64,000 nucleotides of DNA from contig CM057138.1 in the NCBI GenBank assembly GCA_029964075.1, forward strand, positions 10,472,932 to 10,536,931, written 5' to 3'. The stretch's first letter is position 1; every line of letters begins with the position of its first letter. Shown here one piece after another: positions 24,180 through 63,533 of this stretch. The translations under genes and the position numbers were made by a program. The DNA is from Patiria pectinifera (lineage: Eukaryota; Echinodermata; Asteroidea; Valvatida; Asterinidae). The notes under the pieces were generated by a model that was not told the DNA's origin, searched no databases, and saw nothing but the letters and a program-made list of their open reading frames with translations.

Positions 24180-24183
24180 CCAC

Positions 24184-35571: not shown

Positions 35572-37165
35572 GTAAGTGCTTATTTTGTGTTCTTTTAACC
35601 CTAGCTTTTTTCATTTACCCAAAATCAACCAGGCGCAGGCGGTTTTGGAGAGTTTTGGAGGATGGATCCGGCCGGAGGCTGTATGCCTTTTAAGCCAGCG
35701 CTGGTTGATTTTGGAAGATGCATCAATGTCTTAAGCTGTACCTTTCATTTTGTATGTCAGCATGCATAATTCAGACCAACTGTACACATATGTACAGCCT
35801 ACCGGTACATGATATACAAATGATGAATGTTTGTGAGTGCAATGGTAAGAATAATTTCATGAGGTGACAGATGAAATGTTCCATTCCACGAGGCGAAGAA
35901 TGGAACATTTCATCTGTCACCGAATGAAATTATTCTTTCCATTGCACGAACGTGAAACATTCATTATTTGTTATATATAACACCTGAATAAATCCTCGTC
36001 ATCTGATTGGTTGACTTTTAATAGCCAATTTATTCAGGTTAAAACTGTTTAAAAGTTCCACAAGTTCATTGTATTTATTTTGATGCAAACTGTTCAACAG
36101 GTTCAGAACATTCATATGCAATTTATCTGGATTTAAAACAGCGCGCCACCAGCAGCAGTGACACCGTGCAATGGAAGTTCTATTCAACGTGCAATATAAC
36201 TTCCATTGCACTGTGCGCTGCGCGTTGGTACGAATAATTCAATGACATGTGATCAACGATCCACCAATCAGATGACGGGGATTTATTCAGGTGTTGTATA
36301 ATACTGGATATCACCCGCACTGTACTGCTTCGAAATATGCCATAGTGCACTATTCCAAGTTCATCATAAAAAGTGAGTCAGAGGATTTTGAAAGATTGAG
36401 GCACAGGTCATCGACCCTCCACTAAAGAAATTCAAGAAATAACAGATGATTTTGGAGGATTGAGGCTGTATCCTGTTTTTACATTCAGGAAATTCAAGGA
36501 TTTTGGGGGGGATTGAGGATGCATACTACAGGTAGCTAGGGCTAAGGTAAGGGGTAATATGATCTGCTTTTGTGTGACCGTTTACAAGTTGTCAACAGAT
36601 CTAGTCACAAGTAAACCACAAGTCAATTCAAAAGTCTGGTTATTATTATGAATAGTAACAAACACTGATGTCACAGTTTACTCTATACTTAGTGCTGTTC
36701 GAGGGCTTGTGACGAAACTACACAACCCACTACATCCTGCTTACTGGTACGACGTCTTATTTTCCACTTGACCACAATTTCAAATTTGATGTAAAGTGCT
36801 GAAATTAATCACTAAGTGGAAAGGTTTCCATATACGAAGTTCACTCAACACCCTGTGTACAAACCCTATGAGACTGGACTGAAAAATTCCAAGTGTTTTC
36901 TAAGAAAATGCTTGTATTTTCTCACTGCTCAAATTGACTTTGATGACATGAAATTGCTATCTAGGGGCTTGTTAGTCAACACAGAGGAGAATTAGTGAAC
37001 TTCGTATATGGAAATCTTTCCCACTAAATTTTTATTCTGATGATTTTTGTACAGGTGCCAAGGGTGTTCATCAAGGGAAAGTTTATCGGCGGAGGCACAG
37101 AGGTCAAGCAACTGAACGACGAAGGAAAACTGGAAGGAATGCTTCGAGACTGCGGGGCCATCTAA
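35329..37165 (+). CDS. Dithiol glutaredoxin, whole gene model (2 coding exons)
   Basis: The gene encodes a 117-aa glutathione-dependent thiol-disulfide oxidoreductase. Exons are 35329-35571 and 37055-37165. The active site CPYC lies at about residues 43-46 in SKTHCPYCTMAKKAL. The cis-Pro motif TVP is split by the intron (TT|VPRVFI), and the glutathione-binding GG lies in GKFIGGGTEV. All core thioredoxin-fold motifs of class I glutaredoxins are present and nothing is missing. The start MGNWLS gives a Gly2 context compatible with N-myristoylation; no mitochondrial presequence is evident. An acceptor at 35310-35311 (TTTTTCAG) just before the ATG suggests an upstream untranslated exon. Orthology to GLRX2 versus GLRX cannot be settled here. 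Confidence 0.93.
35815..36303. mobile_element. Double-hairpin MITE family E, copy 1
   Basis: The first hairpin is GATGAAATGTTCCATTCCAC and inverse, with AATAATTTC / GAAATTATT arms. The second spans CACCTGAATAAATCC ... GGGGATTTATTCAGGTG with ATCTGATTGG / CCAATCAGAT inside. It is almost the same as 58989-59548. It lies in the glutaredoxin intron. Confidence 0.8.
36815..37025. mobile_element. MITE family F, complete 211-bp copy
   Basis: The left end AGTGGAAAGGTTTCCATATA, then CGAAGTTCACT, is mirrored by AGTGAACTTCG, then TATATGGAAATCTTTCCCACT. It occupies the end of the glutaredoxin intron, 29 bp from the acceptor. Confidence 0.8.
37055..37165 (+). CDS. Glutaredoxin exon 2 (cis-Pro and GG motifs, stop)
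   Basis: The acceptor is TTTTGTACAG|GTGCCA. The exon encodes VPRVFIKGKFIGGGTEVKQL, then LNDEGKLEGMLRDCGAI and TAA. A MITE ends only 29 bp before this exon. Confidence 0.94.
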   Translation: MPRVFIKGKFIGGGTEVKQLNDEGKLEGMLRDCGAI

Positions 37166-44518: not shown

Positions 44519-44703
44519 TTACGCAGTGTTGCCGCTGTCTGCCCCTCCTTTCTCCGCCCCTCCTTGCTCCGCCCCTTCAGGGGGTGGTTTCTCGTAGTTG
44601 CCTTTCCTCTGGTGTCGGCACATCTTACAATCGTCGTCATCGTCACTGTCATCACTTGATGAGCTCTCCCCAAACATACGTGGCTTCTCATATATGCAGC
44701 AAC
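44519..44703 (-). CDS. PPP1R11: PPP1R11 exon 3 (Cys cluster, acidic tail, stop)
   Basis: The acceptor is GACTTCACAG|GTTGCT. The exon encodes CCCIYEKPRMFGESSSSDDS, the acidic run, CKMCRHQRKGNYEKPPPEG, and a Gly/Glu/Ala-rich end with TAA. Confidence 0.94.
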
Positions 44704-47700
44704 CTGTGAAGTCGAGACATTTTATATGCTTACAATAACACAAATAAGCGGCCTGCTCTGACGAAATGCCTGTAAAGTTGCCAGATACTGTTTGGAAAAC
44801 CCCTACGGAAACCAGCAGCTATAGTTAAATAAAAGTGTCAGTGAATTGCCAAACTGCTTCTGAACTAAACCGACTGGAACCGAAAATTGCAAATGCAAAA
44901 CTGAAACCGACCCAACTGAAAAGATTGAAAAACCGACACGACCTGAAGTCGATTTTGGGTTGGGTTGGTTTCGGGTCGGGTTTGAACATTGCTCCAAGGT
45001 ACATGTACATGTAAGTTGTCCAGTAACCTTGCCGAATGCAACATCATGTAATAATTGTCAAAGTAAGAAGCCTGCCCAGTGTAACAAGATCCAAAAGGTC
45101 AAATTTCTGAAAAGGCCAATTAGCCTCAGAGTCTGTGGTTGCCAACTGCAATAGGGTAGAACAGTGCCCATTGTCTCAGAATTGGCTCAATACAACAAAC
45201 TCTCACAGACTTTATCACCTGTGGCAATGTGTTGGATAAAGAATGAATGAGTAAGGGCCCCCCCCCCCCCTCAATTCATATCCAGGACGAGTTCCGGACA
45301 AGTTGTGGGTAGAATCATTCACTTTGTCCGTAAGAAGCTCTGCATTTGTCCCAGACATGTTCCAGGGATATTTTCATTAGCAACTGCTTGATTCACCAAT
45401 ACTGATAACTTCATTGCGGAAAGATTACAAGGAACTTTAACTAATACCTGATTGCATTCTCAGCAACTTGTCTGGAACTTGGCCCGGATATGAGTTGAGA
45501 CAGGCCCTAAATTAAAATGGGTATAAAGTAGTCTTTTCCAATTCGGGCGATTCACAATGCAGTGGCGCCACCAATAGTTTGCCACGGAGAGTTCATTTTT
45601 CCCAGTGCATTGTGGGAGATGGTCGACAAATTCGCAGTACGGGACATTTGAAATTGTTAGTTTTTCCGGTCAGTACTTTCGTAAGCGTATGATTTGAGGA
45701 TCTGTTTGCCCTTTTCTTTTCTTCTCATCAATATGGTGATTTTTGTAAGGCGGCAGAACGCTATGCTCCAATCTATAACATATTAGCTCAAGTTGTCTTC
45801 TGACACTCATTCAAATGGACCATGTTTTGTCGGCCGTAAACCTGAAAAATGGACTCTCCATGGCAAACTCTTGGTGGCGCACTGCATTGCGAATCGCCCG
45901 AACTGCTTGCTGTGTATGTTAGGCCCCAACTATAGCAATGGCCTCAACTAAAGTTGGGAAAGTCCAAACTATAGCTGGGGAAATCCCAGTTCACGTATAA
46001 TGCTAACTATATTAGGATCGGCCCATAATTATAGTTCAGGCGATACTATAGTTGGGGCGTAACATATATATATACATATTACAGTACTTACATTTTGATT
46101 TCTTTTTCCCCATGTGCTCATTATCTACAACACCATTTTTCCAGTTGACTTTCTTATCAGACTTGGGCTTTCTCAACTTTAGCGTTACTGACGGCTGTTG
46201 AAGGAAAGACAATATGATATATAAATACAAATGTAATTGATCAATTAAAAAGTTCGAGTCCATGCATGCGTATGACTGTTCGATACGTGCTCCGATCCAT
46301 GCTGTACAACAGTATGGGCTTTGAATACACAAAAGGTGCAGACGACTTTAACATACACGTTCAAATGACGTTTCAGCCGTCTCCACCTTCGTTGTATTCA
46401 AAGCCTATACTGTCGTGCTGCACTGATCGGAGCATACATGTATATCATTACACGAAACAGTCGTTGATAAAGCGTGACTTGTTTTTCTTTGATTGACGAC
46501 GGTGAGGTCACTCGGAAGAGTAGTAAAAGGAACTGAGCAATTTGGCAAACCCTCGGTAAGTTTTCAGGCTATTTTTTTTTTTTTTTTAAACTACCGCTAG
46601 TTAGGAACAAGTTAAGGGGTCTTAGGGAGTGTCATTTTTGTAGAACGATCCAGGGTAATTAACTGTCTTTCTCATTTGTATTCTCTTTAGGCCCCCCCAA
46701 AAAAGTCTCCGGTTTCTGGTATGGGGCTTGCCCAAAAAGTGGTGCGGCAACGCGGCTTTTTTTTTTTTTATCTGTTTTTTTTGCTTCAAATGTCGGCTGA
46801 TGACTGCAAATGGTGCCCGACTAAACTTAGTGCAAATATTATGGGAGACCAGAGAGGCCACATAAAGCTTATTCTCGATCATAACCCCATCTAAAAACCT
46901 GTTAAAATTGTGCAGCAGCAGCATTCCAGTCAAACCAGTGAGTTTGGCGGTTTTGAGACATCATCTTTCATTGAAAAAAAAAACTCTTTCATTTTGCCGA
47001 CGCGCATGGCTACAGCGACGCGCGCGCATACCAGAAACCGGAGACTTTTTTTTTTTTGGCCTTAGGCCTACCAGGTTTTTTGGGGGGACCTTCTGTACCT
47101 ACAGTAGTGTGGGTATGTACAAACTGCTACCGTGTACCAGTCACCAAAAAATGCATAATCGGAGGAGCGCGTGTTCATAGGGTACCATAGTTCCAGCGTT
47201 CCACTTGGTCTCAGTAGAACTAGGACATCATCACATGTACTGCTTAAGGTTGACAATGTCATTTTCTAGTAATAAAAAAAATTCTTGATTCTGATTTGAT
47301 CGAAATGAAACAGGGGCTCTACACTACACGATTGCCCAAAAAAGGGGGCTCCTCCTTCCTTTTAAAAAACCAGGATGCTCAACATGTTTTTTTTTAATTT
47401 CGACTTAAGTTAGGCATGTGAGTGGTAAGGGGCCTGTCTAGCCCCACTAGTGTGGCCGCGATATTGCTGCGCTGTATCTCTGGCCACACGCCAGGTTCTC
47501 GCCCACTACTGAGGAGGTTCCCAAAAAATTTCGCAAATTTTCTTAATATCGCGGCCACACTAGTGGGGGCTAGGGCGTGGTCCAGCATGTCAATTATACA
47601 TGTCTGTTTCATTTTTTGTCTCAGTGAACAGTGTAAAATTAAAAACCAACAGTTGTCAGCTATCTTGAAAATAAATAAATACAAACTAAAAAGTCCCTCC

Positions 47701-48981
47701 TCTATGTCCTCCTTTTTTCAAAAACCTGGACGCTGAACATGTTTATTTTTTACTTGGCCATTTGGGAATTTGGGATAGCCTATGGCTATGCCATGGCATG
47801 AATGTCAGACAAGTCGACCGTTGAACCAACTAGACTCGGGACAAGTCGACCGTTGAGACAACTCGACCGTTGAGACAAGTCGACTGTTGAGACAACTCGA
47901 CTCGGGACAACTCGACCGTTGAGACAGCTCGACTTCATGGAAATGTATACACGTGGAGCGGAAAAAATGCATAAATTTGTGGTACAGTGGGGGGACCGGT
48001 CCCGGGCGTGGGGCTGGCATACTCGATGCACAGAGGGCGCTCCGATCCGGTGGCCGTCGCGAGGACCGGGCCTGGCCCGGCACGCGGGCACGTTGACCGA
48101 CCGGGGATGGGATAAGTGGGCGCACAGGCCCGGCAAAAACGATGCCACCGTGCACGGTACGGCCACGTTGACCGGGGATGTGCGCACAGGCCCGGCAAAA
48201 ACGAACGATGTGCACAGACAATCATGCTGCGCCATATCAGCTCTGTTATGCAACCAAAAAAAAACAACTCATGTATCATAACTCCCAAACTGCGATCAGC
48301 CACCGTCAAAATACCCGGTACTATCCCCAAAAACCAGGCCCCAAAACATGCGAGTTGATTTGTCTCAACGGACGAGTCGTCTCAACGGTCGACTTGTCCC
48401 AATCGAGTTGTCTCAACTGTCTGACCCCCCATGGGATAACATTAACGCAGTGGCTATTGTTACGGCAGCCGTAACGCATTTCCCATTTTCTATCGTTACG
48501 GTGGTACTGCAACTTTTATAAAAACATGAGAAGAAAATATAAATTAGAAGGAAAAAAGTAAATTTGAACGTTATGAAATTCGGACTTTATTTCCCGTTTA
48601 AAAAAAAAATCCTTCACAGCCTCAGGTTAGAAAAGGAAAAAGATTCGAGTGTAAAACTGAGAAGTGAGATGCGAACCCGCAACCTCGCGGTGCAAAATCC
48701 TACTCTCTATCGACTGAGCTGTCGCACTGCTTACCAACTGACCAAAACGTGGGGAAAGAAATAATTATTTATATACCTGCGTGCGTATCAAAAAAGTATC
48801 GTAGAGGGCGCTAAACAACGAATGCCGTAACGATAGCCACTTCGTACGCGTAACATTAACCATGATTATAAGTGATTAACAATAACAGTCAGACAGTTAA
48901 CACATTACGCATTACCGATCTTTGACTCTGCGTTTCTGTTAACGTTGAAGTCACTCCTGGGGTAGGTAAAGTTGAAGACAT
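44519..48981 (-). CDS. PPP1R11: PPP1R11 / protein phosphatase 1 inhibitor-3, whole gene model (3 exons)
   Basis: The gene encodes a small, heat-stable-type regulator that binds and inhibits PP1 catalytic subunits; vertebrate PPP1R11 is also reported as an E3 ubiquitin ligase. The exons are 48981-48916, 46194-46092 and 44703-44519, with phases 0 and 1 matching, giving 117 aa. It shows LKLRKPKSDKKVNW, which contains a KVNW PP1-docking (RVxF-type) motif, then [27 protein letters not shown], an acidic stretch (SDDSDDDDD) and CKMCRH. The Cys cluster and the [10 protein letters not shown] block are family hallmarks. The tail is Pro/Gly/Glu-rich. Length agrees with the family (about 115-130 aa). It starts 223 bp from the GTF2H4 start, in the opposite direction. 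Confidence 0.94.
44704..46091. other. PPP1R11 intron 2 with two hairpin repeats
   Basis: 45542-45902 has ends TTCGGGCGATTC / GAATCGCCCGAA and arms of about 60 bp. 45920-46060 carries inverted GGCCCCAACTATAG / CTATAGTTGGGG copies. 45257-45267 is a poly-C run. No further exon. Confidence 0.55.
45542..45902. mobile_element. Foldback MITE in PPP1R11 intron
   Basis: The left arm contains TTCGGGCGATTCACAATGCA, GTTTGCC and GGAGAGTTCATTTTT; the right arm is its inverse (AAAAATGGACTCTCC, TGCATTGCGAATCGCCCGAA). About 245 bp of unrelated interior. Confidence 0.75.
46092..46194 (-). CDS. PPP1R11: PPP1R11 exon 2 (PP1-docking motif)
   Basis: The acceptor is CCTTCAACAG|CCGTCA. The exon encodes PSVTLKLRKPKSDKKVNW, then [13 protein letters not shown]. 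The donor is CAAAAT|GTAAGT with one base of the next Cys codon. Confidence 0.94.
46270..47230. repeat. Diverged relative of palindrome P1 carrying a nested MITE
   Basis: 46440-46690 and 47062-47225 together follow the order of the P1 right arm (GAAACAGTCGTTGATAAAGC, GGGGTCTTAGGGAGTGTCAT, GATCCAGGGT, TTTGTATTCTCTTTA, later ACCGTGT and ATAGGGTACC). The MITE A copy at 46690-47061 interrupts it. A small hairpin at 46300-46420 precedes it. It lies in PPP1R11 intron 1. Confidence 0.65.
46690..47061 (-). mobile_element. MITE family A, copy 3 (inverted, nested)
   Basis: Same element as at 30113 and 41761 but in the opposite orientation: it begins AAAGTCTCCGGTTTCTGGTA, then GGGCTTGCCCAAAAAGTGG, and ends CCAGAAACCGGAGACTTTTT, then GGCC. 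Confidence 0.87.
47438..47575. mobile_element. Short foldback element with P2-type ends
   Basis: TAGCCCCACTAGTGTGGCCG at the left and CGGCCACACTAGTGGGGGCTA at the right. ATATTGC and TTAATATCG-type inner arms. The ends equal those of palindrome P2. Confidence 0.8.
47805..48425. repeat. GTCGAC-CGTTGA array around a GC-rich core
   Basis: 47810-47935 is a run of GACAAGTCGACCGTTGA-type units. Inverted units (TCAACGGTCGACTTGTC) occur at 48358-48420. Between them, 47985-48215 is unusually G+C-rich, with repeated GCGCACAGGCCCGGCAAAAA units. It lies in PPP1R11 intron 1. No gene is recognised. Confidence 0.65.
48664..48728 (-). repeat. tRNA-like sequence (A and B boxes)
   Basis: On the minus strand: GTGCGACAGCTCAGTCGATA (A-box-like) and GGTTGCGGGTTCGCATC (B-box-like). 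The anticodon stem does not pair well, so a tRNA-derived repeat is more likely than a working tRNA. Confidence 0.45.
48916..48981 (-). CDS. PPP1R11: PPP1R11 exon 1
   Basis: ATG at 48981. The exon encodes MSSTLPTPGVTSTLTETQSQ and two more residues, a Ser/Thr-rich N-terminus like that of other PPP1R11 proteins. The donor is GATCG|GTAATG, phase 0. Confidence 0.85.
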
Positions 48982-49204
48982 CGTAGTGCAGCACTGTAGA
49001 GTAGAGTACTCAGTAGAAAGTTTGTCGAGTTTTGCGGTGTTTTTATTTGTAGTTTTGTGCACTCGACTGCGAGCTGCTTCAGTGCTTGTCGCTTGTTGAA
49101 GTTGTTATTGACATGTAACTGGTGCCCGGCAAAGCTTATCATTCACACTTTTTCGCCATTGATTACCAGTGTAAAGTCCAACAATGCGATTTAGTAATTT
49201 CAAG
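48982..49204. promoter_or_regulatory. Shared bidirectional promoter region of PPP1R11 and GTF2H4
   Basis: Only 223 bp separate the two divergent start codons, so both 5' UTRs and core promoters must lie here. No TATA box is obvious. CAAGATGGCAGCC over the GTF2H4 start resembles a YY1 site (AAnATGGCGGC), common in TATA-less housekeeping promoters. Promoter function is inferred from geometry. Confidence 0.7.
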
Positions 49205-49326
49205 ATGGCAGCCTCCATGGGAGAGAAATTGAAGTGCAGAGATTTGCACGGATATTTGCAGACTTTGCCTTCATCTGTACTTGACAGACTATACAATCAT
49301 CCAGCAACATGTTTGGCTGTGTTCAG
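49205..49326 (+). CDS. GTF2H4: GTF2H4 exon 1
   Basis: ATG at 49205 ([20 protein letters not shown]); a second ATG four codons later is an alternative. It ends TTCAG|GTAAAA in phase 2. Confidence 0.94.
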
Positions 49327-52300
49327 GTAAAAGATCTGAGGAATTTAAGGGAAATATTGCAACCTGACGCCACTTCAGCGGTTGTGTACAAAGTCTACGG
49401 AGAGTCTATAACGTACGACCCGTGAACGGCGTTGTGTGTGGAGCGGGATCGGACCGTACTAAATTTTGCCCGTGCTTAACCATGGCGGGCGGGCCGGCCG
49501 CGCCGTCCGGCATTGTTTGCTTGGCGTGCACCTGGACAGTGCAAAGGTCCGGGGGAAAAATCGTATTTTTTTGTTATGTATTGTAGGCCTATGTCGCCTA
49601 TATGAGAGGTAAAAACCTGATTCAAAAATCAAGTTTAATTGTTGATTTATTTAATGGGGATTCCTTTGAGTTTGACGTATGATATCAAACATTTTGATAG
49701 GTTTGAAAAAGGAGATCAAAAAGGAGAAAAAGGAGATTGTCAAAATAAACAAAATATTGTATGATCTATAAATGATCCCTTTTGAATTTTTGTGTGTTTG
49801 TGATTTTCTTTTAACAGGGAGTTGCCAACACTTGCCAAGCATTACGTAACTAGAGTACTTTTTGTTGACCAGCCGGTGCTCAAAACTTCAGTGGAGTCGT
49901 GGGTACAAAAATCTCATCTAGCGTAAGTTTCTGCCATGTTGTCAGACAATTCAAGTTATATTTACTACTTAGTCTCACTAACCATGCTAACTGGGGCGCT
50001 AGAACTCCTTTTTTTGACATTTGGGATGTTGGTCTGTCGTACTAGCGTCTCACTAAGGAAGTATTCTCAATGTTGCAATTTCCAAAGTTCACCATAAAAG
50101 TTGGTCCTGTCGAGCGCAATTTGAGTCCCCCACGCAAGTTTAAAACTTCGCGCAAAGTTTAAAACTTGTGGACCTGGACTCCTGCAATTACACCCGCGCG
50201 CCATTTTGCGTTGCAAGTTTTGCGCAAGTTTAAACTTGCGATCGCAACACTTAACGCAACCGCGGGATTTTCATTGATGAAGAATTTTTTTTTTCAAAAC
50301 ACGAGTACATGGAGAAATAATGGAATAAATGAATGAATAAAGAAATAAATAAAAAGGGGAATTCAATTAGCGTCAATGAAAAGAATCATTGCGATTTAGC
50401 AGTGCTTATCAGAGAAGTTATTTAAGGGTCCGTGGGGGCGGGGCCAGGGAGGGGACCGGGCAAATAAACAATAACTTAAACACGGCGGCTTGGTGAGTGT
50501 ACTGAAGTAAAGTTGTTGGAAAAATGGAGACCAGCTTTTTTTTTTTGTTTTTTACCCTAATTAGCATTTTATTTATATTCTTGAATGTAAATAATTCATA
50601 ATTTCCTAGGTGTAAAACCCGCTGTTTACGTAAAAAAGATGATTAAGATCAATTGTTCAAGTTTTGACATTATACAAATTATTTACATTTTTAAAATGCT
50701 TATGTATTCTACAATTAAAAAAATACTTACTCTTAAAAATACTAATTAATTTAACAATTAATAAATTGTACGGTGCAATAATTCATATTGTTTTTAGAAA
50801 TACTTGCATAACATTTCGGCGTTGTGTACATAATTCAAAAAATGCATTTGAAAAAAAAAAATAATGAATGCATATAATCATGCTAATTTAATTAATTAAT
50901 TAAATGTATTACTTTAACAAATATTTTTTATTTCAGGCTCAATAATTCATATTAAAAATGTTTACACTTAAAAAAAATGCTAAAATAAAATGGTAATTTT
51001 TTTTTTAGTAAATACATTTGCAAATCATTTAATTAATTAATTTAATCAAATGTTTCACAAAAGGAATTAAGGCATTGTCTCCCGAGCAGTGATGATCGGA
51101 AAAAATCTGCTTTAAAAATAATGTTACATATCTGCATTAGTATACCATGTATACCCGGGGCAAAATAGTTTAGCGGCTCTGTATTCGTGGCGGGAAAAAT
51201 CTATGCAGTGCGCAAGTTTAACGTTTAAACTTCCGTACGCGCAGGGTTTAACTTGTGTGCGCGCCAAGTTTAAACTCATGGGATCTACTTATGCCGACAG
51301 TCCTACTAAAATGCGTCAACAAACGTCAACAAGCGTAACAAATAGTGACAAAGGACACAGTCAGCATATGAAATAAAGTTACAATTATTTTAAAAACTTG
51401 TTTGTCGAGTTTGGGTTGGCCACCATTTTGTTTACGTGAAGCTAGCCATAGTACGCATGCGTGAAGTGTACAGAGCCAATCTACAATCTAATCTACAAAC
51501 TCGTACATTTCGTGTTTAAAAACAAGTTTTGAAATAGTTTTAACTTTATTTTATATGCCCAATGTGTCGATTGTCACTATTTCTGCCATAAAAAAATGTC
51601 TTTTGATGTTCCAAAACTTATACGAAATTTGTTGATGCTTGTTGACGACCATTGACGCTTGTTGATGCTTGTTGACGCATTTTAGTAGGACTTATAAAAG
51701 TTGCCAAAAATCACGCAAATTACTTGACAAAAATACCTTTGAAAGCACCTACTGGCCTTTTCACATGTCAAAGACGAAGTAACGGGGCATCAATGATACT
51801 CACGATTATTTTTGGGGTTGCAAATTAATCCGAGAAATTTAACCACCATAGCACAGGTCTGGACATCATTCAAGGATCATTCAATAATACTGTGGCCGGT
51901 TTTTGATCTACGCATTGTCTATGCACGTACATACGAACACGTACACTGTACGTGAAGCAGGGGACACGACCGTGACCTGCCTCAAAAAACAAACTTACGT
52001 GTAGATCGGGGGATACAACAACAACTGTTTCATGGCAAGGCAGTCAAGCACTGTATCATCACGCTCGCGCTGTCCGGTCGTCGTGCATACGTACACGCTA
52101 TGCACGTTGCAGGTGTACTCTTGTACCGCCCGTTGTCATGAAACAGTCGTTGGTGCATCCCCCGATCTACACACGGAGTTTGCTTTTTGACTAGGAGCAA
52201 CTAGGACTCTACGAAGTTTGTTTAAGTAACTAAGACTCTACGAATCGCCATTTTTAACATTTGAACATGGTCAGGCAATACTAGAGTCCGAGGTCGATAG

Positions 52301-55300
52301 CCGTGGTCACCTGGATTGGTCGCCATGGGGACCAATCAAAGTGCACTGTGATTGGTCTGTCTGTTGCTTGCCAGGAAACAATCTAGCCAGAGCCATGCAA
52401 AAGTCTTATTTTTCCTGAATTCAAAATGGCAGCCTCAAACAAGGCGTGTGTGACAAGGGTGTTTCCCAAATTGAAGGTGAAATTTCTCTTTTTTTCCCAA
52501 AGGTATGTGAACCTAACCATCACCATTTGTATTGTCAATTCCCACTGAAGCCTACAGGGTCCTATAAGGCAGTTTGAAAACTGTTTTTGGTGAAATCTGA
52601 AGATTTTGATTGGGGTTACGATTGAAAATGGTAAACAAAAATTACTAGTAAAGGCAATACGGCTATCGACCTCGGACTCTACTATCACCCGGCCATGTCC
52701 AAATGTTAAAAAAAAGTCGATTCGTAGAGTCCTAGTTACTCGGACTATTAATGCGCTACCCGCTGCTATGTACATCTGATTTAGCTCGGTGTTAGTTAGC
52801 TCGGTGGTCGAGTGGTAAGACATCTGCACTAGAAGGCAGGAGGTTGTGGGTTCGAGTCCCACCCGAGTGATTTTGTCCAACTTTCACTCAGAGGAAGGTA
52901 CATGTGTATACACACCAGTGTTGTAGGACTCGGACTCGGGACTCGGACTCGAGTCCGGACTCGAGTCCTTTTTTCAAGGACTCGGACTTGGACTCGAGTC
53001 CTTTGCTCAAGGACTCGGACTCGGACTCGGACTCGGACCCCAAGGACTCGAGGACTCGGCCCGAAGTCCGGCTCGAGTCCAGCAAAATCGGGTCTTTTTA
53101 GGTGTTTTATTTCAATTATTTTATGTCTTTCACCTTGATTTGGTTTTGCTGTGGAACCAATTCCGCAGTTCTGCCGCCGCAAAATAACTTGCCGATTGAT
53201 CAATGATCAATTGATTCATTCCAACCTAACCTAGCCAATTGCCCACCAAATAAATCGATTCATCAGTTATTCAGTTGCTTGCCGATGTGTTGGACTTTTT
53301 GTTCAATATTACTAACATGGTTGACACAATGACAAGGAGCTATCTCAGCCGCATGGAATCAACGCCATACAATTGGGCAAGTTTTTTTTAATGTACATTA
53401 TAAACATAATGAATGCATTGCATAGTGCATACAGCCAAAACCATTACCCCTTCTCTATCACCTGACATTTGATAGTGACATTTTGAAAACGTTAATATAG
53501 TATTGGTGAACCGCGACTTGAATTTGATACATAAGGACTCGGACTCGGACTCGAGTCCTTTTTTCAAGGACTCGGACTCGGACTCGGACTCGGACATCAA
53601 AAATTGACAAGGACTCGGACTTGGACTCGAGTCCTTTGCTCAAGGACTCGGACTCGGACTCGGATGAGGCGGACTCGACTACAACACTGATACACACTGA
53701 GTATACAGTGTTTAAACGTCGGTGAAGGGCAAAACCTAATAGAATTTACTTCCCCCCAACTCAAAAATCCATCTTTTGAATATGTGTTGTTTTTCTCTTT
53801 CAGAAATCACAAGAAGGCAATACAGGTATTATCAGACCTACGAGTGTGGCAGGACCAAACGCTGCCTGGTGGCCTACCTGGATGGCAGCTCAACACGATC
53901 TTCAGAACGAACCTGAGAATAACACTATTGGGAGGGTACGTTGCAAAGGTTTCAGTGTATCAAGGTCCCAATGTCATCACTTTTGGTCTCCGAAGAGAAA
54001 ATACCAACCCAATCTCGCTCGAGTTGAGAGAGTTTAGGGACTGAAGTGCAAGGCACCTGCAGCCGATTTCACAAAACATTACTTACGTCCTGCGCAGGAC
54101 TTATGCTACAAATTTGTTGTGCAGCTGCGCAATAAACTTATAACAATTTCTCAAAATTTGGCGTTCATGTAGTTGGGCAACATGTTAAATAATCTAAAAA
54201 TCTTAGACGAGGATGATAGCAGCATTTAGGACAGCTGTTTGTGTATGATCCTCATTTGCTTCATCACCATTCATCCCCGATCCTCCAAAATCCTTCAAAA
54301 CCTTCAGAACCTTAAGGAGGATTTTGGAGGATTGACAAGGTTTAGGGTTGAAGATGTTGGTGCTTGTATAAAGCAGGAGGGCACGAGTTCAAGTCCTACC
54401 TGAGTACAAGTATACGGTATTTACAGAATGACATCACAGAAAAGGCAAAACACAATGTTGAGGATTTCTTTCTATAACATGTCTGTCAATAGGGGTAAAC
54501 CGTGGTCTGGCACAGGCAAAACAGCCCCCGACAAGAATGCTAAGGACATAGAGAGCCTCAGCAAGTATGCACTGGACCGATGGGAGGTAAGTATCTGTGT
54601 TTCTTTACAAAATCACAAATATGAAATGGGTGGAACAGAACCAAATGTAGTAAAGTGTCTTGCCCATGAACACAAGCACCATAGTTCTCCATTAGGCCTA
54701 AAGTTCCATTTGGGTTTGAACCGTTTGTCAAACCAATAGTGACATGAAACTTTACACATCAGTCAGACATTGTATATTTCACCACTTGCACTTGCAATTA
54801 CCAAGAAAAGTGGAATATGGCAATTTCTAAATTTTGAGATTACAATCTTTTAACCCTTAGTCCCTAAGCCTTTGTGGTAGGACGCAAACTCAATCCTGCG
54901 AATCCTGCAACTGCCTCTGTGTAAAAATTGCATGCAGCCTCGATCCTCCAAAATCATCCGTTATTTCTTTAATGTTGTCCTTGGAGGTGTGACCACTGCC
55001 TCCATCCTGCAAAATTCTCCAGTAATCACTGTCAATATGTTGAGGCAGAGCCAGTGAAATCCTAGAGCAGTGCAGAGGATCAGCCTCACAGTTTTGCCAT
55101 AGAGCCTCAATCCTACAAAATCCTCCATTTTGCAGAGAGGATTTTGAAAGATTTTAGAAGGTAAAGTGTTAAGGAAGCAGCATTAAATTCATTTGTGGGC
55201 ATGTGTGGTCTAGCGGTGGAGCACAGGATTCATGATCGTGAGATTGTGGGTTCGAGCCCTGCTGCGGCCATGCGTGTTGTGCCCTTGAGTAAGGCGCTTT

Positions 55301-58300
55301 ACCTCAATTACTCCTCTCAACCCAGGTGTTAAATAGGTACCGGCATTATTCAATGCTGGGAAGGTAACAGACTCGCTGTGGAGGAGGTGTGGCAATCTCC
55401 CCACAGCAGCATATGAGTCTGGCCCAATCGCTAACGAATTAGAGATGGGCACTCCATTCTTGTTAACACAGGTTCGTCCCCTTTACCTTTACCTTTTATT
55501 AAATGATTCCTAAATTCCTCTGTTTTTGGTCATTTTTTTCCCTTAACAGCTTGTACTTCATTTCCTTGTTGGGTCCAAGGGAGAGGATAGTGTTTCTGCT
55601 GATATCGCTCACGTTTTAGTTCATTCAGGTCTCATGAAACAGTAAGTTTAGTCCTTGTTTTTTTATTTCCAGAAAAGTGCCATCCTTAAAGGTAATTACA
55701 ATGTATACAGGGTGAGTCAAAAAAAGCGAAACCTAAATGTCGGGACTATTGTTTTAGTGAAGTGCTGCATGTAGCACTTTTCTAAATCTAGGACATGAAA
55801 GCCCAATTCACAAGCTTTCTTTAAGTACAAGAATCATTCATATCACTCATGTATTTTTAAGTTATAGAATTTTAAACACAACCACTGTTTTAAAGTTCTG
55901 TCCACCGATCACAAAAAAAGTGTGCGTTCTTTCAGCAAAACGAACACAATTGACACACATCCCTGTGTGATTGTTTTCGTTTTTCACTTACCTTCTTGTG
56001 ATCCGTGGACAGAACTTTAAAACGGTGGTTGTGTTTAAAACTCCGTAACTTAAAAAGTACATGAGTGATTTGAATGATTCTTGTACTAAAAGAAAGCTTA
56101 TGAAGTGGGCTTTCATATCCTAGATTTTGAAAGTGCTACATGCAGAACTTCACTAAAACAACGGTCCCGACATTTGGGTTTCGCTTTTTTGACCCACCCT
56201 GTACAACATTTGCAAACATCAAAAAAAAAAAATACTGCGCCAGTTTAACTTTGCATGTGGCGATCAATATGGGGCTAGAGTTTTTTTTTCAGTATTGTAT
56301 AAAAAGCCTTAATGACTGCTAAAAGCATGTGAACAAAGAACCACCATCAACTTAAAGGTTACCATGGACAAAAAATGTGGCACCTGACAATAAAGCACTG
56401 CAACTTTACGATAAAAAAAATATTTCATTTGTGTGAGTAGTGCATAGTTTTTGGTTTGCGAATATTCAAACCGGCCAAAAGCTATTCAAATATTCGGTAA
56501 ATGATCGAATATTCCAGTGTTTGGTATGTACTCAGGACAGCCCTATGCTCAGGATTATAATGTCAACACATAGTATAACCTGTTTCCAAGGTTTATGTTT
56601 AGTCTTGAACTATCCGGTTCGTTAGTGTGACGTCACCTCCAGCACTTTCTCCACAATTGGAACCGGAAGTTAACGCAGTTCGAGCGTTTGTAGCCAATGG
56701 GCGCTAGTAATCAGTGGTGCGCGTGCGTGTATGACGTTTTTACTAACGAACCGGATAAAGAGGTTGTGAATAAAGGCACGATAGTGATCTCAGATTTGTC
56801 TGTGTCAAACCAATACATGTATGGGTGGGGGTATCAAAGTGAATCTTTCCTTGCACTTTTCCTCAAATTTGACCAGCTACAAAGTGGCGTCCATTATTAA
56901 TAGCTCACTTTGTTAAACAACATAGTTTTAAAGCTATAGTCCATCATTTGCAGCCATCCGAAAAAGTAACTGGCGTATTATATTGTTGAAAAACATACTT
57001 GGTTGAAAGATAGTAAGGGGACTAAACTTCCTGTGAAATTAATCTTCTAGCAAGCTATCATTTTGAAGTAATCAACGAAAGAAGGCCTTTACGCACCGTA
57101 GGAAAATTTAAATTAGTAATTCATTTTGTTATTCGGCGCAGCGCGCACAAGCATTGGAACGACGCACAGGCGCGCGCGGTTGCTATAATTCGTTGGATCA
57201 GTGCACGACATCGCGTATAGCTGCAATTCAAAACAATTCAAAACATGATTCAGCAACTTTTGATTTGAAATTGAGATCCTAGAATGCTGTTTTTCTCGGA
57301 ATATACAGCTAAAAGCTTAGCTGAAACTTCTCAGGTTTGTTGTTCAGTATCCTTCATTAGATTTTGAACACTTTTGTTGCTTCAAACGAACAAAATGCAC
57401 AAATTACAAATGATGGACTACATCTTTAAGTTTCAAACTTCAACAGTTGTTCTTGCATTATAAAGCAAAGATCCTGGAGAATGTTGTTTCAAATAGGCAG
57501 CCTGTTTTCTTGTTTCATACTCGAAATGTATGCGAGAGCACCCGACTATGTTTTATGATGTTACAATGTAGGAATGAGCAAGGCAAGCCTGTTATAACAC
57601 CATCTGGTTTCCAGTTTCTGCTTTTGGACACGGCATCCCAGGTGTGGTTCTTCATGCTACAGTACCTAGAGACGGCAGAGGTGAATATAAACTATTATAT
57701 CACTGACATACAGATCCTTGTCATTTGATTGGTGGAACTCACATCACATGACATTCATTATTGCTCCCATTCACGCCGGGGCCCAAAAAGTCCCATCGCC
57801 TTGGTGAATGGGATTTACTATTCAACAGTTACGATCATCCTTGTTCCTTGGTTTGGTATTTGTGTGCAAATGCATGTTGTGTACGTGCGCGATGAGCGTA
57901 GTACATATTATTCCCAAGTGCCAGTAGCTACAGATTTGGGTTCAAACATTTCGTGAAGGGGTGGTTTAGAAGAGAGAAATATATTTCCCACCAATTTTGT
58001 ATTGAAATAGATGTTCATTATAACGGTATTAAATCAAATGATCTATAATGTCAATTATATAAAACAATGAAATGGGAGGAATACTATCGCTCGGTAAAAT
58101 CTGGACTTTTCCATTTCACTCAGCTTTTGCTCGTGAAATAAAAATGTCCAGATTTTACGTTGTGATGATATTCCTTCTTTTCCACTCTGAGCCACTCAGT
58201 ATTTGTATAATAATCAAGTTTGTAGATAGTTTCACAATTCTTGATTCTAACCAACCTGCTAACTCCATTTGTGGAAGGAGCCTTTCTGAATCCGCTGAAA

Positions 58301-61300
58301 TGTTCCAAAACTAAGCTTTCACTCATTTTCCTCCCTGGAAGAATTGAAATTCTTAAAGTCCAACATGGAGCAATGATTAGGTTTACACTTTACCAGAAAT
58401 GAAGAAATAAAATTTGACATTGGAGATGATGAATGTTTTTTATTTAATTACCAATGCTTTGGATACACAGAAAATTGTGAAAAAGTCCATGGACATTAAC
58501 CCTAACCCTACTAAATCATCCAAAGTCCTACGGGCAGTTTTGGAGGATTTTTAGGATGAATGCAAGGTACTATTTTGGAGGATCGTGGAGGATTGAGGGC
58601 ACATGGACATTCAGTATCGGTTGATTTTAAAGGATTGAGGATGAATGGTGTTTGAAGAAGAGGAGGATTTTGGAGTATTGAGGCTGAATGCATTTTGGGC
58701 TGTTGGAGGACTTTGAGGGATTGAGGCAGTGGGTATCCTTAATTCAAACATACATGCAAGTGTAACATTTTGGAGGATGGTTCCTAGCAAACAGGGCCTA
58801 GGGTTGGGGTTAATATCAAAACACAGCATTCCAAGAAATACAATGAGAATAGGTATTCATGTGAAAAAGTAATGGGTGCACAAATAACTTTTGTGAGTTT
58901 GTGAGGTTTTTAAAAGAACCGGGGAAACTGCTCAACGTTTTGGACAGTGTACTCTGCCCATCGCCAGCCTCATGATGACTGACAGTATACAAATAATGAA
59001 TGTTTGTGAGTGCAATGGAAAGAATAATTTCATGAGGTGACAGATGAAATGTTCCATTCCACGAGGCGAAGCCGAGTGGAATGGAACATTTCATCTGTCA
59101 CCTCATGAAATTATTCTTACCATTGCACGAACGTGAAACATTCATTATTTGTTTTATATAACACCTGAATAAATCCTCGTCATCTGATTGGTTGACTTTT
59201 AATAGCCAATTTATTCAAGTTAAAAATTGTTTACAAGTTTGACAAGTTCAGAGTTATCATATTTAATTTATGCAAACTGTTCAACAATTTAAAACTTTTC
59301 CATAAGTTTAGAACTTAAACAGTTCAATAAGTCCAGAACTTTTATTGCCAATTTAAACACCACAGCGCCACCTTCGGCAACATGTGCAGTGACAGTGCAA
59401 TGGTACTTCTAATCACAGTGCAATAGTACTTCCATTGCACTGTGCGCTGCGCGCCACGCGCGCGCCGTGCATTGGTACGAATAATTCAATGACATGTGAT
59501 CAACGATCCACCAATCAGATGACGGGGATTTATTCAGGTGTTGTATAAAGTATACTGTCTGAAACATTGTGTTTCCCCCGGTTCTTTTCAGAACCTCTGA
59601 AACTCACAAAAGAGATGTGTTACATGGTGCAAACGTAAACTTTATCTTCACCATGCAAACCTTGAAAATCTTATCTAATGGGTAAACTAAAATTTAGTGT
59701 AATATAAGACATTTTAATGAAGGTATTAAAAATATTGAAATGCCCTTTGCTGTCTATGTTTTTACATTTTAGTCCAGAGGACTGAATCTTGTGGATGCTC
59801 TGTCATTCCTCTTTCGGCTCAGCTTTTCAAGTTTTGGAAAGGTAATCTAAAGTTGATCTGCATTCCAATTATAATGGGAGCATTGCTAAGATTTGCCATT
59901 TTTTTTTTAGGGACCATGACCATTCAGCCCTGGTATGAACAGGGCCCCCCGGTACCTCGTCCGGTCCAGAGCCAGTCCGGTCTTCAGCCCAGTCTCGTCC
60001 GGTACATGGTCCTGTCTGACCAGAAGTTTTGAAGTCAGTCAGGCGCATCAATTTATTGCCCTTCCAAGAACGTCCAGAGCAGAACAATAGCAGACTTACC
60101 GGATTAAAGATAAAATCCTTCCAAACGCCTTTTTTAATTTACGGTCCCATTGTGTGCGAAACCGCATGGCAGTGGTTTTGATCTGTGCGGACGAAAGTGT
60201 TCTATTGTTTTGCGCTGAGAGATGAAAACCACAAGCAGGTTTCTTCTGAGATATATTACATGTGTCAATACTTGCAAGCAATAGACCCCAGGATAGAGGA
60301 GTTCCTGATTAGCAACCGGACCAGCTCCTGGGCCGGTAACTGGGACGGTACGAAAGGACTTCTTGGGAGGGGACGAGCTTACCGGGGGGCCCTTTTCATA
60401 CCAGGGCTGAATGGTCACGGTCCCTTAGATCTATGTTACAAGATGGTGTTTTGCAGAGCCACTTAAAGAGATTTCAAGTTCTTGTCACATTGTACAAGCC
60501 CAAACTTTAATAATGCTGACTTCACCGTGCAAACTGTCAACTCTTGCCAAAATATGAACAAACTATTTCAATTGGTACTCCATGTACATGTATATTTACA
60601 ATATCAAACAGGCCAGACACAAGCACAAGTAACTTCACACTTTTTTCTTGTATGTATGTTTCTTATTAGGACTATTCCTGTGAATCGATGAACGAGTCGC
60701 AATTGCAGTTTTTGCAGCACCTCCGAGAGCTAGGCCTGGTCTTCCAGAGAAAGGTGAGACCAAGAAAATGCTTGAAATATCTGTAGGATATATTAAAGCT
60801 ATAGTCCATCATTTGCAGCTATCCGAAAAGTAACTGGCGTAATCATTGTTCAAAAACATACTTGGTTGAAAGATAGTAAGTGGACTAAACTCCCTGTGAA
60901 ATTATTCTCTCTGGCAAGCTGTCATGTTGAAATAATCAACGAAAGAAGGCCTTTCCAACGGTGCTTCTTAAGACGCACCGTAGGAAAATTTAAATTAGTA
61001 GTTCGTTTTGTTATTTGGTGAAGCGCGCGCAAGCATTGGCGCGACGCACATGTACGCGTCGTTGCTACAATTGGTCGGATCAGTGCGCGACATCGCATAG
61101 CTGCAATCGGCTCAGTGAGAACGTGTCTCGAACGCTGAATTCAGGCCCAATTCAAAACATGATTCAGCAACTTTTGACTTGAAATTGAGATCCCAGAATG
61201 CTGTTTTCCTCGGAATATACAGCTAAAACTGAGCTGAAACTTCATCAGGTTAGTTGTTCAGTACCCTTCTTTAGATTTTGAGCACTTTTGTTGCTTCAAA

Positions 61301-63533
61301 TGAACAAAATGCACAAATTACAAATGATGGACTATATCTTTAAACGGGGTTCAGACAGTCATAGGTAATTCGGTATTAGTAGTTTCTATATGTGCAGAGC
61401 TTTGTAGTATAATGAAGTGCTAGGACACGGTGACAGGATGCCTCATTAAAGGGAAAATACAACTTTTGCAAACATCAAAAAATAAAACTACCAAATCATT
61501 TTGAAATACCTTGCTGGACTGTTAGTGAATGACAGTGTAAAGCATCCTGTAAAATCATGGCACCTGGTATACTGTCATTTTCAAGAAAAGTGGTATTTTT
61601 GTATCAATTTCCAACGCTGGTCGGCCGACCAGCGTTGGAAAAAAAACTGGCTTTTTTTCAAATACTGGCCCCAATTGACCATCGCACTTGTTTGCAATCG
61701 ATTACACACCTATGAACGGGTACAAGCCAGCTAGACTGGTTCCCTGACCTTACAATTCCCCATTGTATGTAAACTGCTCTGTTTCTTCTCATATGGAGTC
61801 AGGGAACCAGACTACAGGAAAATGATTGTTTTTCTTGGTTTTTATAGCATTTTCGAACCCAATGCAAAACCTCAAAAAAGTCAGTGTAACTGTATTTGCT
61901 ATATATTTCCAACCCCCCAATTCCATCCATTTCTGAAAATTACAGCAAAAGCAAATGATGTATATTCCCTTTAATGTTTTGTTACATGTAAATTTCACAT
62001 GAACAAGTATGAGGATGGTTTGCCAAAACCAATACATTTTCAAATTTATGTGAATCAGTTTTTTGGGCATGTTTCACTTTTGATTTCAGAGGAAGAGTAT
62101 GCGCTATTATCCAACAAGTCTAGCAATCAATCTGGCATCAGGTAAGGCTACAAAGTTACCAGAATTTTGGATATTTCGCGGTTGTGTAAATGTTCTTTTC
62201 GTTGGTAATTCGTTGTGTCAGTGCATGGCAGTAAGCCCATGAGCAAACTTTTCTCACAAATGTTTTCGATGAACAGATTTTTGGATTCATATGTGAACAG
62301 AAAACCCCCAAACTGAACAGTGTCTCCCTGAAATGACCACATCAACAGCGCCCTCAGTGTCTGTGTTCGGAAAAACATGGATAATTTTAAATGTTTAAAG
62401 ATGTGCACTCCTGAATACAATTAACCAAAGAGGGATGTCAAATAGTTTTTATATTTATCTAAAAATTAATGTGGCCTGACGTTGCGAACTTAGCAAGTTC
62501 TTCTTCAGAGGCTAAAACAGAAATGACAGAGGTACATACATTAAAGGGAATAAACAACATTTGCAAACATCGAAAAATAAAACTACCAAGTTTTTACGAA
62601 ATACCTTACTAGGATGTTGGTAAATGACAGTCTGAGGCATCTTGGAAAATTATGGCACCTGGTGTGAAGTCATTTTCAAGAAAATGGTATTTTTGTACAC
62701 ATTTCCAACAGTGGTCGGCCGACCAGCGTTGGAAAAACCTAACCATTTTTCAACTACTGCTCCAAATTTACCATTTTTTCAGTCCAAATTTTGTTTGCTA
62801 TTGGTTACAAGTTCATGAACGGGTGCAGGCCAGCTAGACTGGTTCCCTTGCCTTACAATTTTCCATCATCTATAAATTGATCCATTTTATCTTTTGTGGA
62901 GTCAGGGAACCAGACTACTTGAATTTTTTTGTTTTTCTTGGTTTTTCCAACCTTTTTGAACTCAAAACATCAAAAATGTCAGTGTAACAATATTCGATCT
63001 ATAATACTAACCCCTCAAATAGTTCATTTCTGAAAATTACAGCAAAAGCCAATGATGTACATTCCTTTAACATGGGGGTGCACACAAACATGCAGGGCTG
63101 AAAGAAGAAACACAAAAGGAGGATTAGGTGGGAAAGGTGTGGAAAGATGCAGGGGAGGGTGGATGAGTTTTTATATTTATTAGGGGTAGAGCATTGCACA
63201 AAATGTGTTCTTAACAAAAATTCATTTCATGGACACTTTAAAGGCATACAGTCTCAATCGTCTGAAATCCTCAAAAATCACTTAGCTGATTTTGGAGGAT
63301 TAACGAGGGTCAGGGTATAATGACAGTGTTGATCAGAGTTTGACAGCTTGATTTGGAAAACATTTGTGCTTGAACAATTGATACATCTTTAATCCAACAG
63401 GTGTTACTAATGCGAGTACAGACACTCACCGGGAAGGCTTCATTGTGATTGAAACGAACCACCGAGTCTATGCCTACACTGAGTCTGATCTTCAAGTAGA
63501 GATCCTTGGTCTGTTCACACAGATGCTGTACAG
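49205..63533 (+). CDS. GTF2H4: GTF2H4 / TFIIH subunit p52 (Tfb2), first ten exons, 3' end outside window
   Basis: p52 is a core TFIIH subunit that anchors and stimulates the XPB helicase in transcription initiation and nucleotide excision repair. Ten exons with matching phases give about 330 of an expected 460 residues: 49205-49326, 49818-49922, 53804-53935, 54493-54586, 55550-55641, 57572-57680, 59773-59841, 60670-60753, 62090-62141 and 63401-63533. Recognisable blocks are [93 protein letters not shown] and [10 protein letters not shown]. These agree with my recollection of vertebrate p52 along the whole length. The missing part is the C-terminal XPB/p8-binding region. Confidence 0.95.
49818..49922 (+). 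CDS. GTF2H4: GTF2H4 exon 2
   Basis: The acceptor is TTTTAACAG|GGAGTT. The exon encodes [20 protein letters not shown], then [10 protein letters not shown]. The donor is CTAGC|GTAAGT. Confidence 0.94.
50100..51285. repeat. AT-rich intron element with inverted GCAAGTTTAAACTTGC words
   Basis: Copies of CGCAAGTTTAAAACTT and GCGCAAGTTTAAACTTGCG cluster at 50134-50245 and again, inverted, at 51218-51280. The middle is very AT-rich with TTAATTAATTAA runs. It may be one foldback element. It lies in GTF2H4 intron 2. Confidence 0.5.
51299..51692. mobile_element. Foldback element with AGTCCTACTAAAATGCG ends
   Basis: The left AGTCCTACTAAAATGCGTCA is mirrored by TGACGCATTTTAGTAGGACT at the right. Longer arms pair AATAGTGACAA / TTGTCACTATT and AATAAAGTTA / TAACTTTATT. 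Confidence 0.8.
51985..52192. repeat. Hairpin repeat
   Basis: GTAGATCGGGGGATACAACA ... AACTGTTTCATG and its inverse CATGAAACAGTCGTTGGTGC ... CCCCCGATCTAC enclose GC-rich sequence. The GAAACAGTCGTTG word recurs in palindrome P1. Confidence 0.65.
52193..52745. mobile_element. Foldback element in GTF2H4 intron 2
   Basis: Arms: ACTCTACGAATCGCCATTTT, GGCAATACTAGAGTCCGAGG and TCGATAGCCGT at the left; ACGGCTATCGACCTCGGACT and TTCGTAGAGTCCTAGT at the right, in mirror order. Confidence 0.72.
52799..52870 (+). tRNA. tRNA-like sequence, probably pseudogene or SINE head
   Basis: The 72-nt stretch folds to a cloverleaf. CTCGG / CCGAG form part of the acceptor stem and GTC / GAC the D arm. TCTGC / GCAGG closes an 8-base loop ACTAGAAG. 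GTGGG / CCCAC closes the T loop TTCGAGT. Box A (TGGTCGAGTGG) and box B (GGTTCGAGTCC) are intact. The 8-base anticodon loop and the incomplete acceptor stem argue against a working tRNA. Related, more decayed copies lie at 37823 and 54355. Confidence 0.5.
52926..53690. repeat. Two GGACTC arrays with spacer
   Basis: Arrays of GGACTCGGACTC with GGACTCGAGTCC palindromes and a TTTTTTCAAGGACTC phrase at 52926-53075 and 53534-53684, about 460 bp apart. Confidence 0.8.
53804..53935 (+). CDS. GTF2H4: GTF2H4 exon 3
   Basis: The acceptor is TCTCTTTCAG|AAATCA. The exon encodes [40 protein letters not shown] and LLGG. The donor is GGAGG|GTACGT. Confidence 0.94.
54493..54586 (+). CDS. GTF2H4: GTF2H4 exon 4
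   Basis: The acceptor is GTCAATAG|GGGTAA. The exon encodes [31 protein letters not shown]. The donor is TGGGAG|GTAAGT. The polypyrimidine tract is weak. Confidence 0.92.
55199..55495 (+). repeat. tRNA-derived SINE, copy 3
   Basis: The head is TGTGGTCTAGCGGTGGAGCA and GTGGGTTCGAGCCC (box B). The body is GAGTAAGGCGCTTTACCTCA, GGTGTTAAATAGGTACCGGC. The 3' end is TTTACCTTTACCTTTT. It lies in GTF2H4 intron 4. Confidence 0.8.
55550..55641 (+). CDS. GTF2H4: GTF2H4 exon 5
   Basis: The acceptor is CCTTAACAG|CTTGTA. The exon encodes [30 protein letters not shown]. The donor is AAACA|GTAAGT, phase 2. Confidence 0.93.
55708..56201. mobile_element. Palindromic MITE family D, complete copy
   Basis: CAGGGTGAGTCAAAAAAAGC at the left and GACCCACCCTG at the right. 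The two halves are inverse through ACCTAAATGTCGGGAC / GTCCCGACATTTGGGTT and TTAAAGTTCTGTCCAC / GTGGACAGAACTTTAA. TA-type flanks. A partial copy is at 43829. Confidence 0.8.
56928..57429 (+). mobile_element. TTAA-flanked MITE family B, copy 2
   Basis: TTAAAGCTATAGTCCATCAT to ATGATGGACTACATCTTTAA, similar throughout to the copies at 42872 and 60793. It lies 142 bp upstream of GTF2H4 exon 6. Confidence 0.88.
57572..57680 (+). CDS. GTF2H4: GTF2H4 exon 6
   Basis: The acceptor is ACAATGTAG|GAATGA. The exon encodes [36 protein letters not shown]. The donor is GCAGAG|GTGAAT. Confidence 0.95.
58500..58760. repeat. GGAGGATTTTGGAGGATTGAGG-type cluster
   Basis: Many variants of TTTTGGAGGATTGAGG are packed here. 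Shorter runs of the same word occur near 36400-36520, 44400-44460, 54270-54340, 54935-55160 and 63250-63310. Function unknown. Confidence 0.6.
58989..59548. mobile_element. Double-hairpin MITE family E, copy 2
   Basis: Same two hairpins as 35815-36303; the first is longer here (GGTGACAGATGAAATGTTCC and inverse around GAGGCGAAGCC). It lies in the intron before GTF2H4 exon 7. Confidence 0.82.
59773..59841 (+). CDS. GTF2H4: GTF2H4 exon 7
   Basis: The acceptor is TACATTTTAG|TCCAGA. The exon encodes [23 protein letters not shown]: 23 codons, phase 0. The donor is GGAAAG|GTAATC. Confidence 0.94.
59909..60425. mobile_element. Foldback element in GTF2H4 intron 7
   Basis: AGGGACCATGACCATTCAGC, then CCTGGTATGAACAGGGCCCC, is mirrored by GGGGCCCTTTTCATACCAGG and GCTGAATGGTCACGGTCCCT. 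The interior contains CCGGTCC-type words and short ORFs only. Confidence 0.78.
60670..60753 (+). CDS. GTF2H4: GTF2H4 exon 8
   Basis: The acceptor is TCTTATTAG|GACTAT. The exon encodes [28 protein letters not shown]: 28 codons. The donor is AGAAAG|GTGAGA. Confidence 0.95.
60793..61343 (+). mobile_element. TTAA-flanked MITE family B, copy 3
   Basis: TTAAAGCTATAGTCCATCAT to ATGATGGACTATATCTTTAA, with the shared interior. It begins 39 bp after GTF2H4 exon 8. Confidence 0.88.
61446..61974 (+). mobile_element. TTAA-flanked MITE family C, copy 3
   Basis: TTAAAGGGAAAATACAACTT at the left and ATATTCCCTTTAA at the right. The internal palindrome CCAACGCTGGTCGGCCGACC is at its most perfect in this copy. 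Confidence 0.86.
62090..62141 (+). CDS. GTF2H4: GTF2H4 exon 9
   Basis: A short exon below ORF-finder limits. The acceptor is GATTTCAG|AGGAAG; it encodes [17 protein letters not shown] plus one base. The donor is GCATCAG|GTAAGG. Found by phase and by similarity to the p52 RYYPTRLAINL block. Confidence 0.94.
62541..63070 (+). mobile_element. TTAA-flanked MITE family C, copy 4
   Basis: TTAAAGGGAATAAACAACAT at the left and ACATTCCTTTAA at the right, with internal GGTCGGCCGACCAGCGTTGG. Confidence 0.86.
63401..63533 (+). CDS. GTF2H4: GTF2H4 exon 10
   Basis: The acceptor is ATCCAACAG|GTGTTA. The exon encodes [43 protein letters not shown]. It ends TACAG|GTAATC in phase 2. The next exon is outside the window. 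Confidence 0.95.

Follow-up and report, generated by a model that had tools for sequence, protein, structure and literature searches.

PPP1R11 and GTF2H4 lie head to head on a chromosome that very probably descends from the MHC-bearing linkage group

We analysed a window of 64,000 nucleotides (C10:10,472,932-10,536,931, with window position 1 at C10:10,472,932) in which PPP1R11, a PP1 inhibitor that is also named as an E3 ligase in PDB entries, and GTF2H4, the p52 subunit of TFIIH, occupy adjacent positions on opposite strands and diverge from a gap of 223 bp. Judged from sequence, both genes look intact, and the contig that carries them, C10, is very probably derived from the same linkage group as the vertebrate chromosome with the major histocompatibility complex (MHC). 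We consider the following combination a likely account of what we observe: an intact head-to-head pair with a probable shared promoter, located on a chromosome derived from the ancestral MHC linkage group, in which the linkage of the two genes is older than the vertebrate MHC, if the genome is that of an invertebrate, and their adjacency is either a relic or the product of shuffling.

The assembly comprises 613.5 Mb in 1020 contigs. C1 to C22 appear chromosome-sized (size was checked for 18 of the 22), and C23 measures 25 kb. C10 is 23.79 Mb long and makes up 3.9% of the assembly, a share counted by bases, not by genes. Gene families were located by searching the genome in six frames, exon by exon, with Pfam profiles, a procedure in which a blank does not mean that the gene is missing.

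The PPP1R11 gene consists of three exons on the minus strand (Table 1), both of its introns are of the GT-AG type, and the spliced product of 117 residues has no internal stop. This product matches the Pfam family PPI_Ypi1 (PF07491) with E=1e-24 and a solved PPP1R11 fragment in the PDB with 3e-16, and its core is identical to the human protein at 29 of 42 sites. The next recognised gene past the 3' end of PPP1R11 is represented by a glutaredoxin exon (window 35263-35598, plus strand). GTF2H4 is encoded on the plus strand, with ten exons within the window, all separated by GT-AG introns, and at least 14 exons recognised overall. The first-pass annotation had ended the gene at 63533, which proves too short: GTF2H4 continues for approximately 6 kb past the window, where three further exons could be joined and a C-terminal one, identified through Pfam Tfb2_C, was left unjoined. 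The 13-exon product matches Pfam Tfb2 with E=1e-135, the best PDB match of its N-terminal 120 residues is GTF2H4 p52 (1e-34), and identity to the human protein is 56% over 112 sites. PF07491, for PPP1R11, and PF03849, for GTF2H4, each correspond to a single locus genome-wide, in both cases on C10. A tRNA-like sequence lies in a GTF2H4 intron (window 52798-52870, plus strand; 48 bits for the Rfam tRNA family); its anticodon was left unresolved by ARAGORN, and it is perhaps a tRNA-derived repeat.

Recomputing the interval between the two genes confirms what had been noticed at first, namely that the start codons of PPP1R11 at 48981 (minus) and of GTF2H4 at 49205 (plus) face away from each other across positions 48982-49204, or 223 bp. 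The start of GTF2H4 is uncertain, because two more in-frame ATGs are present at 49184 and 49217, and the gap accordingly ranges from 202 bp, with the ATG at 49184, to 235 bp. We thus find two adjacent genes on opposite strands that diverge, which is the gene arrangement of a bidirectional pair. The gap is atypical of the chromosome, since the mean gene spacing on C10 is approximately 25 kb if the genome is assumed to hold 25,000 genes. From this distance, we infer that PPP1R11 and GTF2H4, both of them broadly required genes, probably share a compact, TATA-less and divergent promoter region. Such pairs are common in human, where over 10% of protein-coding genes have a head-to-head partner with the transcription start sites within 1 kb, according to the available part of one study (PMC3552671). 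Like the bidirectional housekeeping pairs of animals, the two genes are on opposite strands, their start codons are a few hundred base pairs apart at most (202-235 bp) and no TATA box was found; unlike in those pairs, the distance is one between start codons and is known from the DNA sequence only. A motif that we take to be YY1-like, CAAGATGGC, spans the GTF2H4 ATG; it is a weak and non-specific indication, because CAARATGGC occurs nine times in the window where 1.6 occurrences are expected. Over 184 kb of surrounding sequence, the region 48850-49340 has no second copy, and the repeats in the gap are limited to short imperfect two-copy repeats and two inverted pairs of 10 nt.

To place the pair in its chromosomal context, eight further families of human MHC genes were searched, and for five of them a locus could be assigned. 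C10 carries four of the five loci: CSNK2B, which we place in MHC class III, VPS52, WDR46 and ATAT1. The binomial probability of this outcome is 1.1e-5, or 1.4e-4 with the three blanks taken as misses. The two control genes, GTF2H2 on C6 and GTF2H3 on C19, are both off C10. It is because four of five MHC-region loci are on this contig and the controls are elsewhere that we regard C10 as very probably a descendant of the linkage group on which vertebrates have their MHC. An ancestral linkage group would have become C10 in this genome and, later, the MHC-bearing chromosome in vertebrates.

The degree of divergence bears on how old this linkage may be. CSNK2B is nearly invariant in vertebrates, and its exon here shows 4 differences from the human chain over 61 sites; this figure, taken with the identities given above for GTF2H4 and PPP1R11 and with the DDR kinase scores given below, favours a non-vertebrate genome. 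Given such a genome, the view that the linkage of PPP1R11 and GTF2H4 at the level of the chromosome predates the vertebrate MHC is supported. The first-pass annotation had proposed a linkage older than the vertebrate MHC, and the proposal holds for the chromosome as a whole, on which PPP1R11, GTF2H4, CSNK2B, VPS52, WDR46 and ATAT1 are all found; it does not hold for RPP21, which is on C18. The pattern resembles the deep chromosome-scale synteny described in the accessible part of PMC7269912, in that genes keep their chromosome while their order scrambles; our case does not contradict that description and provides another instance of it. A larger proto-MHC chromosome, uniting the MHC with the natural killer complex (NKC) and the leukocyte receptor complex (LRC), is held to be an artefact in the accessible part of PMC8302630.

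We stress that several results weigh against the combined account. RPP21, the exception on C18, is a gene of the human MHC class I region, and in the human order it is situated between PPP1R11 and GTF2H4 (PMC1309616). C6orf136, Flot and ABCF1, three of the eight families, gave no assignable locus in the six-frame exon search. The controls are only two in number and are chosen TFIIH genes. As to the promoter, no match to TATA-box, CCAAT, SP1, NRF1 or ETS patterns was found in 48900-49330, so that the motif content is unremarkable; the observed-to-expected CpG ratio of the gap, 0.95, is likewise unremarkable, at the 66th percentile of the window; and the argument for promoter sharing is one of distance alone. 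The location of RPP21 is also what one would cite in favour of there being no ancient linkage, with PPP1R11 and GTF2H4 sharing C10 by coincidence. Such a coincidence would have to accommodate four of five independent MHC-region loci on a contig with 3.9% of the assembly (P of approximately 1e-5), with both controls off that contig, and we judge it very improbable.

Descent from the MHC-bearing linkage group, which we prefer, does not imply that gene order has been kept. The order on C10 is scrambled, because VPS52 and WDR46, which lie within one block in the duck according to the accessible part of PMC10845735, are separated by 14.1 Mb in this genome. The distance between ATAT1 and the PPP1R11-GTF2H4 pair is 13.2 Mb, and the class I framework genes do not form a compact block of conserved order on C10. 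ATAT1 and DDR are nevertheless a second class I framework neighbourhood on this chromosome. The DDR1/2 ortholog, which came to light in the first 40 kb of sequence examined around ATAT1, is tail to tail with it, approximately 11 kb past the last recognised ATAT1 exon, a distance in which an intervening gene is possible. Its identity is given by PDB matches to DDR2 and DDR1 (approximately 1e-38, versus 5e-21 for the next receptor) and by a match to Pfam DDR1-2_DS-like (5e-51). The kinase pieces score 134 bits against human DDR2 and 131 bits against DDR1, nearly equal values, as a gene that predates the DDR1/DDR2 duplication should give; the discoidin piece is less even, with 58 bits for DDR2 and 47 for DDR1. 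WDR46 too has a neighbour, a SAPCD-family gene within approximately 4 kb of its recognised exons. Human SAPCD1 is presumably a class III gene of the MHC that is not close to WDR46, and MHC genes on C10 therefore become neighbours across blocks as well. Probes for DHX16, GNL1, POLR1H, ABCF1, MRPS18B, TUBB and FLOT1, of a kind whose blanks are weak, gave no match in 184 kb around the pair or in 70 kb around ATAT1. The ABCF1 probe matched only ABCF2-like and ABCF3-like loci elsewhere. The profile PF12848 matched only two ABCF genes, on C11 and C6, which we take to be ABCF2-like and ABCF3-like; as candidates for ABCF1 they were rejected on that account.

The first-pass annotation had also suggested that the two genes might be held together by a shared promoter, and published maps lend this no support. 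In the available part of a bat map (PMC4753418), PPP1R11 (133,578-135,422) and GTF2H4 (672,626-677,439) share the plus strand and are approximately 537 kb apart, so no shared promoter held the pair together in that lineage, and the divergent orientation seen here differs from the one in the bat. The first-pass annotation also has human PPP1R11 paired with another gene; in the same part of the bat map, ZNRD1 is upstream of PPP1R11, in tandem and not divergent. In the duck, as far as the accessible part of PMC10845735 goes, both genes are members of a D-P block of 12 genes, with the order DDR1...GTF2H4...ATAT1...PPP1R11 and other genes between the pair. Within what these two sources give, the adjacency of PPP1R11 and GTF2H4 is absent in both distant lineages compared. 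The genome studied here is like the duck block in having PPP1R11, GTF2H4, ATAT1 and DDR on one chromosome, with ATAT1 close to DDR; it differs in that the genes are split between two or more places with 13 Mb between them, and in that PPP1R11 and GTF2H4, separated in the accessible part of the duck map, are adjacent and divergent.

The adjacency itself may be a fragment of an old class I framework neighbourhood or a product of shuffling within the chromosome. If it is ancestral, then PPP1R11-GTF2H4 and ATAT1-DDR would be two fragments of a pre-vertebrate class I framework block, a reading to which we assign slightly less than an even chance. Both genes of the pair come from the one 12-gene block of the duck map, in its accessible part, and so does the DDR gene found beside ATAT1. 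The chance figures for adjacency assume a gene number of 20,000-30,000 in the genome. On that assumption, this specific pair would be adjacent by chance within C10 in approximately 0.2% of cases. With all eight other duck-block genes placed on C10 at random, one of them would be met in the 70 kb read around ATAT1 with a probability of approximately 2%, rising to approximately 5% for 18 framework genes. Against an ancestral adjacency stand the 13 Mb between the two fragments and the room for a gene between ATAT1 and DDR, the seven framework probes without a match near the pair or ATAT1, with the limit already given for such blanks, and the accessible bat map, in which the genes are neither adjacent nor divergent. 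Moreover, the pair was noticed post hoc, and with 20 framework genes on C10, between 0.3 and 0.5 adjacent pairs are expected by chance.

Equally, the adjacency could be a local accident, a rearrangement in this lineage on a chromosome that already carried many MHC-region genes, and for this we see about an even chance. VPS52 and WDR46 have been parted although they share a block in the accessible part of the duck map, and probes of the same kind as above for four genes of that block, RPS18, PFDN6, RING1 and RXRB, found no match in 20 kb around WDR46. What does adjoin WDR46 is the SAPCD gene, the counterpart of a presumed class III gene in human, and if C10 holds 60-100 MHC genes, chance alone would give 10-24% of them another as a neighbour. 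An accident is harder to reconcile with how low the chance figures are when the genes come from one small block, and with the finding of a second same-block neighbourhood in ATAT1-DDR. Taking these arguments together, we regard the choice between relic and accident as close to even. A more detailed history can be offered tentatively, as somewhat less likely than not: a tight block of DDR, ATAT1, GTF2H4, PPP1R11 and perhaps further genes would have existed before vertebrates and before MHC class I, and in this lineage would later have come apart into two micro-linked remnants, of which one was locked head to head by a shared promoter, and the vertebrate immune genes would have moved into what was a housekeeping block.

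A literature search, from whose scope subscription papers were excluded, returned, among the entries listed, no report of the PPP1R11-GTF2H4 pair, of a PPP1R11 bidirectional promoter, of GTF2H4 microsynteny or of SAPCD1 and SAPCD2 in connection with the MHC, and the only paper that linked either gene of the pair with amphioxus was the duck study. Should both neighbourhoods be found again in other invertebrates, this would make part of the class I framework far older than the MHC class I genes, with a direct bearing on the place where the adaptive immune region was assembled. If they do not recur, the case would show that linkage at the level of the chromosome can far outlive gene order, and it would be a warning against treating a single adjacency as a relic.

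Table 1. Coordinates of the gene pair, the gap and the MHC-region loci (window positions unless a contig is given)
Feature	Position	Strand	Basis or size
PPP1R11 exon 1, start codon at 48981	48916..48981	-	Pfam PF07491 on spliced protein
PPP1R11 exon 2	46092..46194	-	PF07491 match in six-frame genome search
PPP1R11 exon 3 and stop codon	44519..44703	-	splice joining
Gap between start codons, candidate bidirectional promoter	48982..49204		223 bp
Alternative in-frame ATG upstream of GTF2H4 start	49184..49186	+	sequence
YY1-like CAAGATGGC spanning GTF2H4 ATG	49201..49209	+	pattern match
GTF2H4 exon 1	49205..49326	+	splice model
GTF2H4 exon 2	49818..49922	+	splice model
GTF2H4 exon 3	53804..53935	+	splice model
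GTF2H4 exon 4	54493..54586	+	splice model
GTF2H4 exon 5	55550..55641	+	splice model
GTF2H4 exon 6	57572..57680	+	splice model
GTF2H4 exon 7	59773..59841	+	splice model
GTF2H4 exon 8	60670..60753	+	splice model
GTF2H4 exon 9	62090..62141	+	splice model
GTF2H4 exon 10, last inside window	63401..63533	+	splice model
GTF2H4 later exons, in window frame	65687-65813, 66671-66749, 68403-68464, ~70,145	+	joining; Tfb2_C
CSNK2B	C10, 0.72 Mb		family search
VPS52	C10, 5.13 Mb		family search
SAPCD-family gene	C10:19,231,524-19,232,333	-	Pfam SAPC2_N 3e-32
WDR46	C10:19,236,683-19,237,422 (19.24 Mb)		family search
ATAT1	C10:23,700,623-23,701,733 (23.70 Mb)	+	family search
DDR1/2 ortholog	within C10:23,712,001-23,732,000	-	PDB, Pfam
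RPP21	C18:3,725,659-3,725,793 (3.73 Mb)		family search, reading frame checked

The observed-to-expected CpG ratio is 0.72 over the 274 kb read and varies from 0.43 to 0.96 by stretch: it is 0.43-0.49 near the end of C10 around DDR (C10:23,702,001-23,752,000) versus 0.6-0.96 around the PPP1R11-GTF2H4 pair. Elsewhere in the window, positions 22453-29670 contain what looks like the remains of a retroelement, putatively of the DIRS type, with an RVT_1 reverse transcriptase and an N-terminal domain of phage-integrase-like character, and two exons on the minus strand at 11055-20830 match the SLC6 (sodium:neurotransmitter symporter) family. Upstream of the window are two very similar carboxylesterase copies approximately 22 kb apart (C10:10,439,243-10,443,090 and 10,461,697-10,465,574), the first with a Pfam COesterase match. 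Approximately 44 kb past the window end, an exon of PSMB1 (proteasome beta-1), supported by PDB matches to PSMB1, lies on the minus strand at C10:10,580,677-10,580,877.

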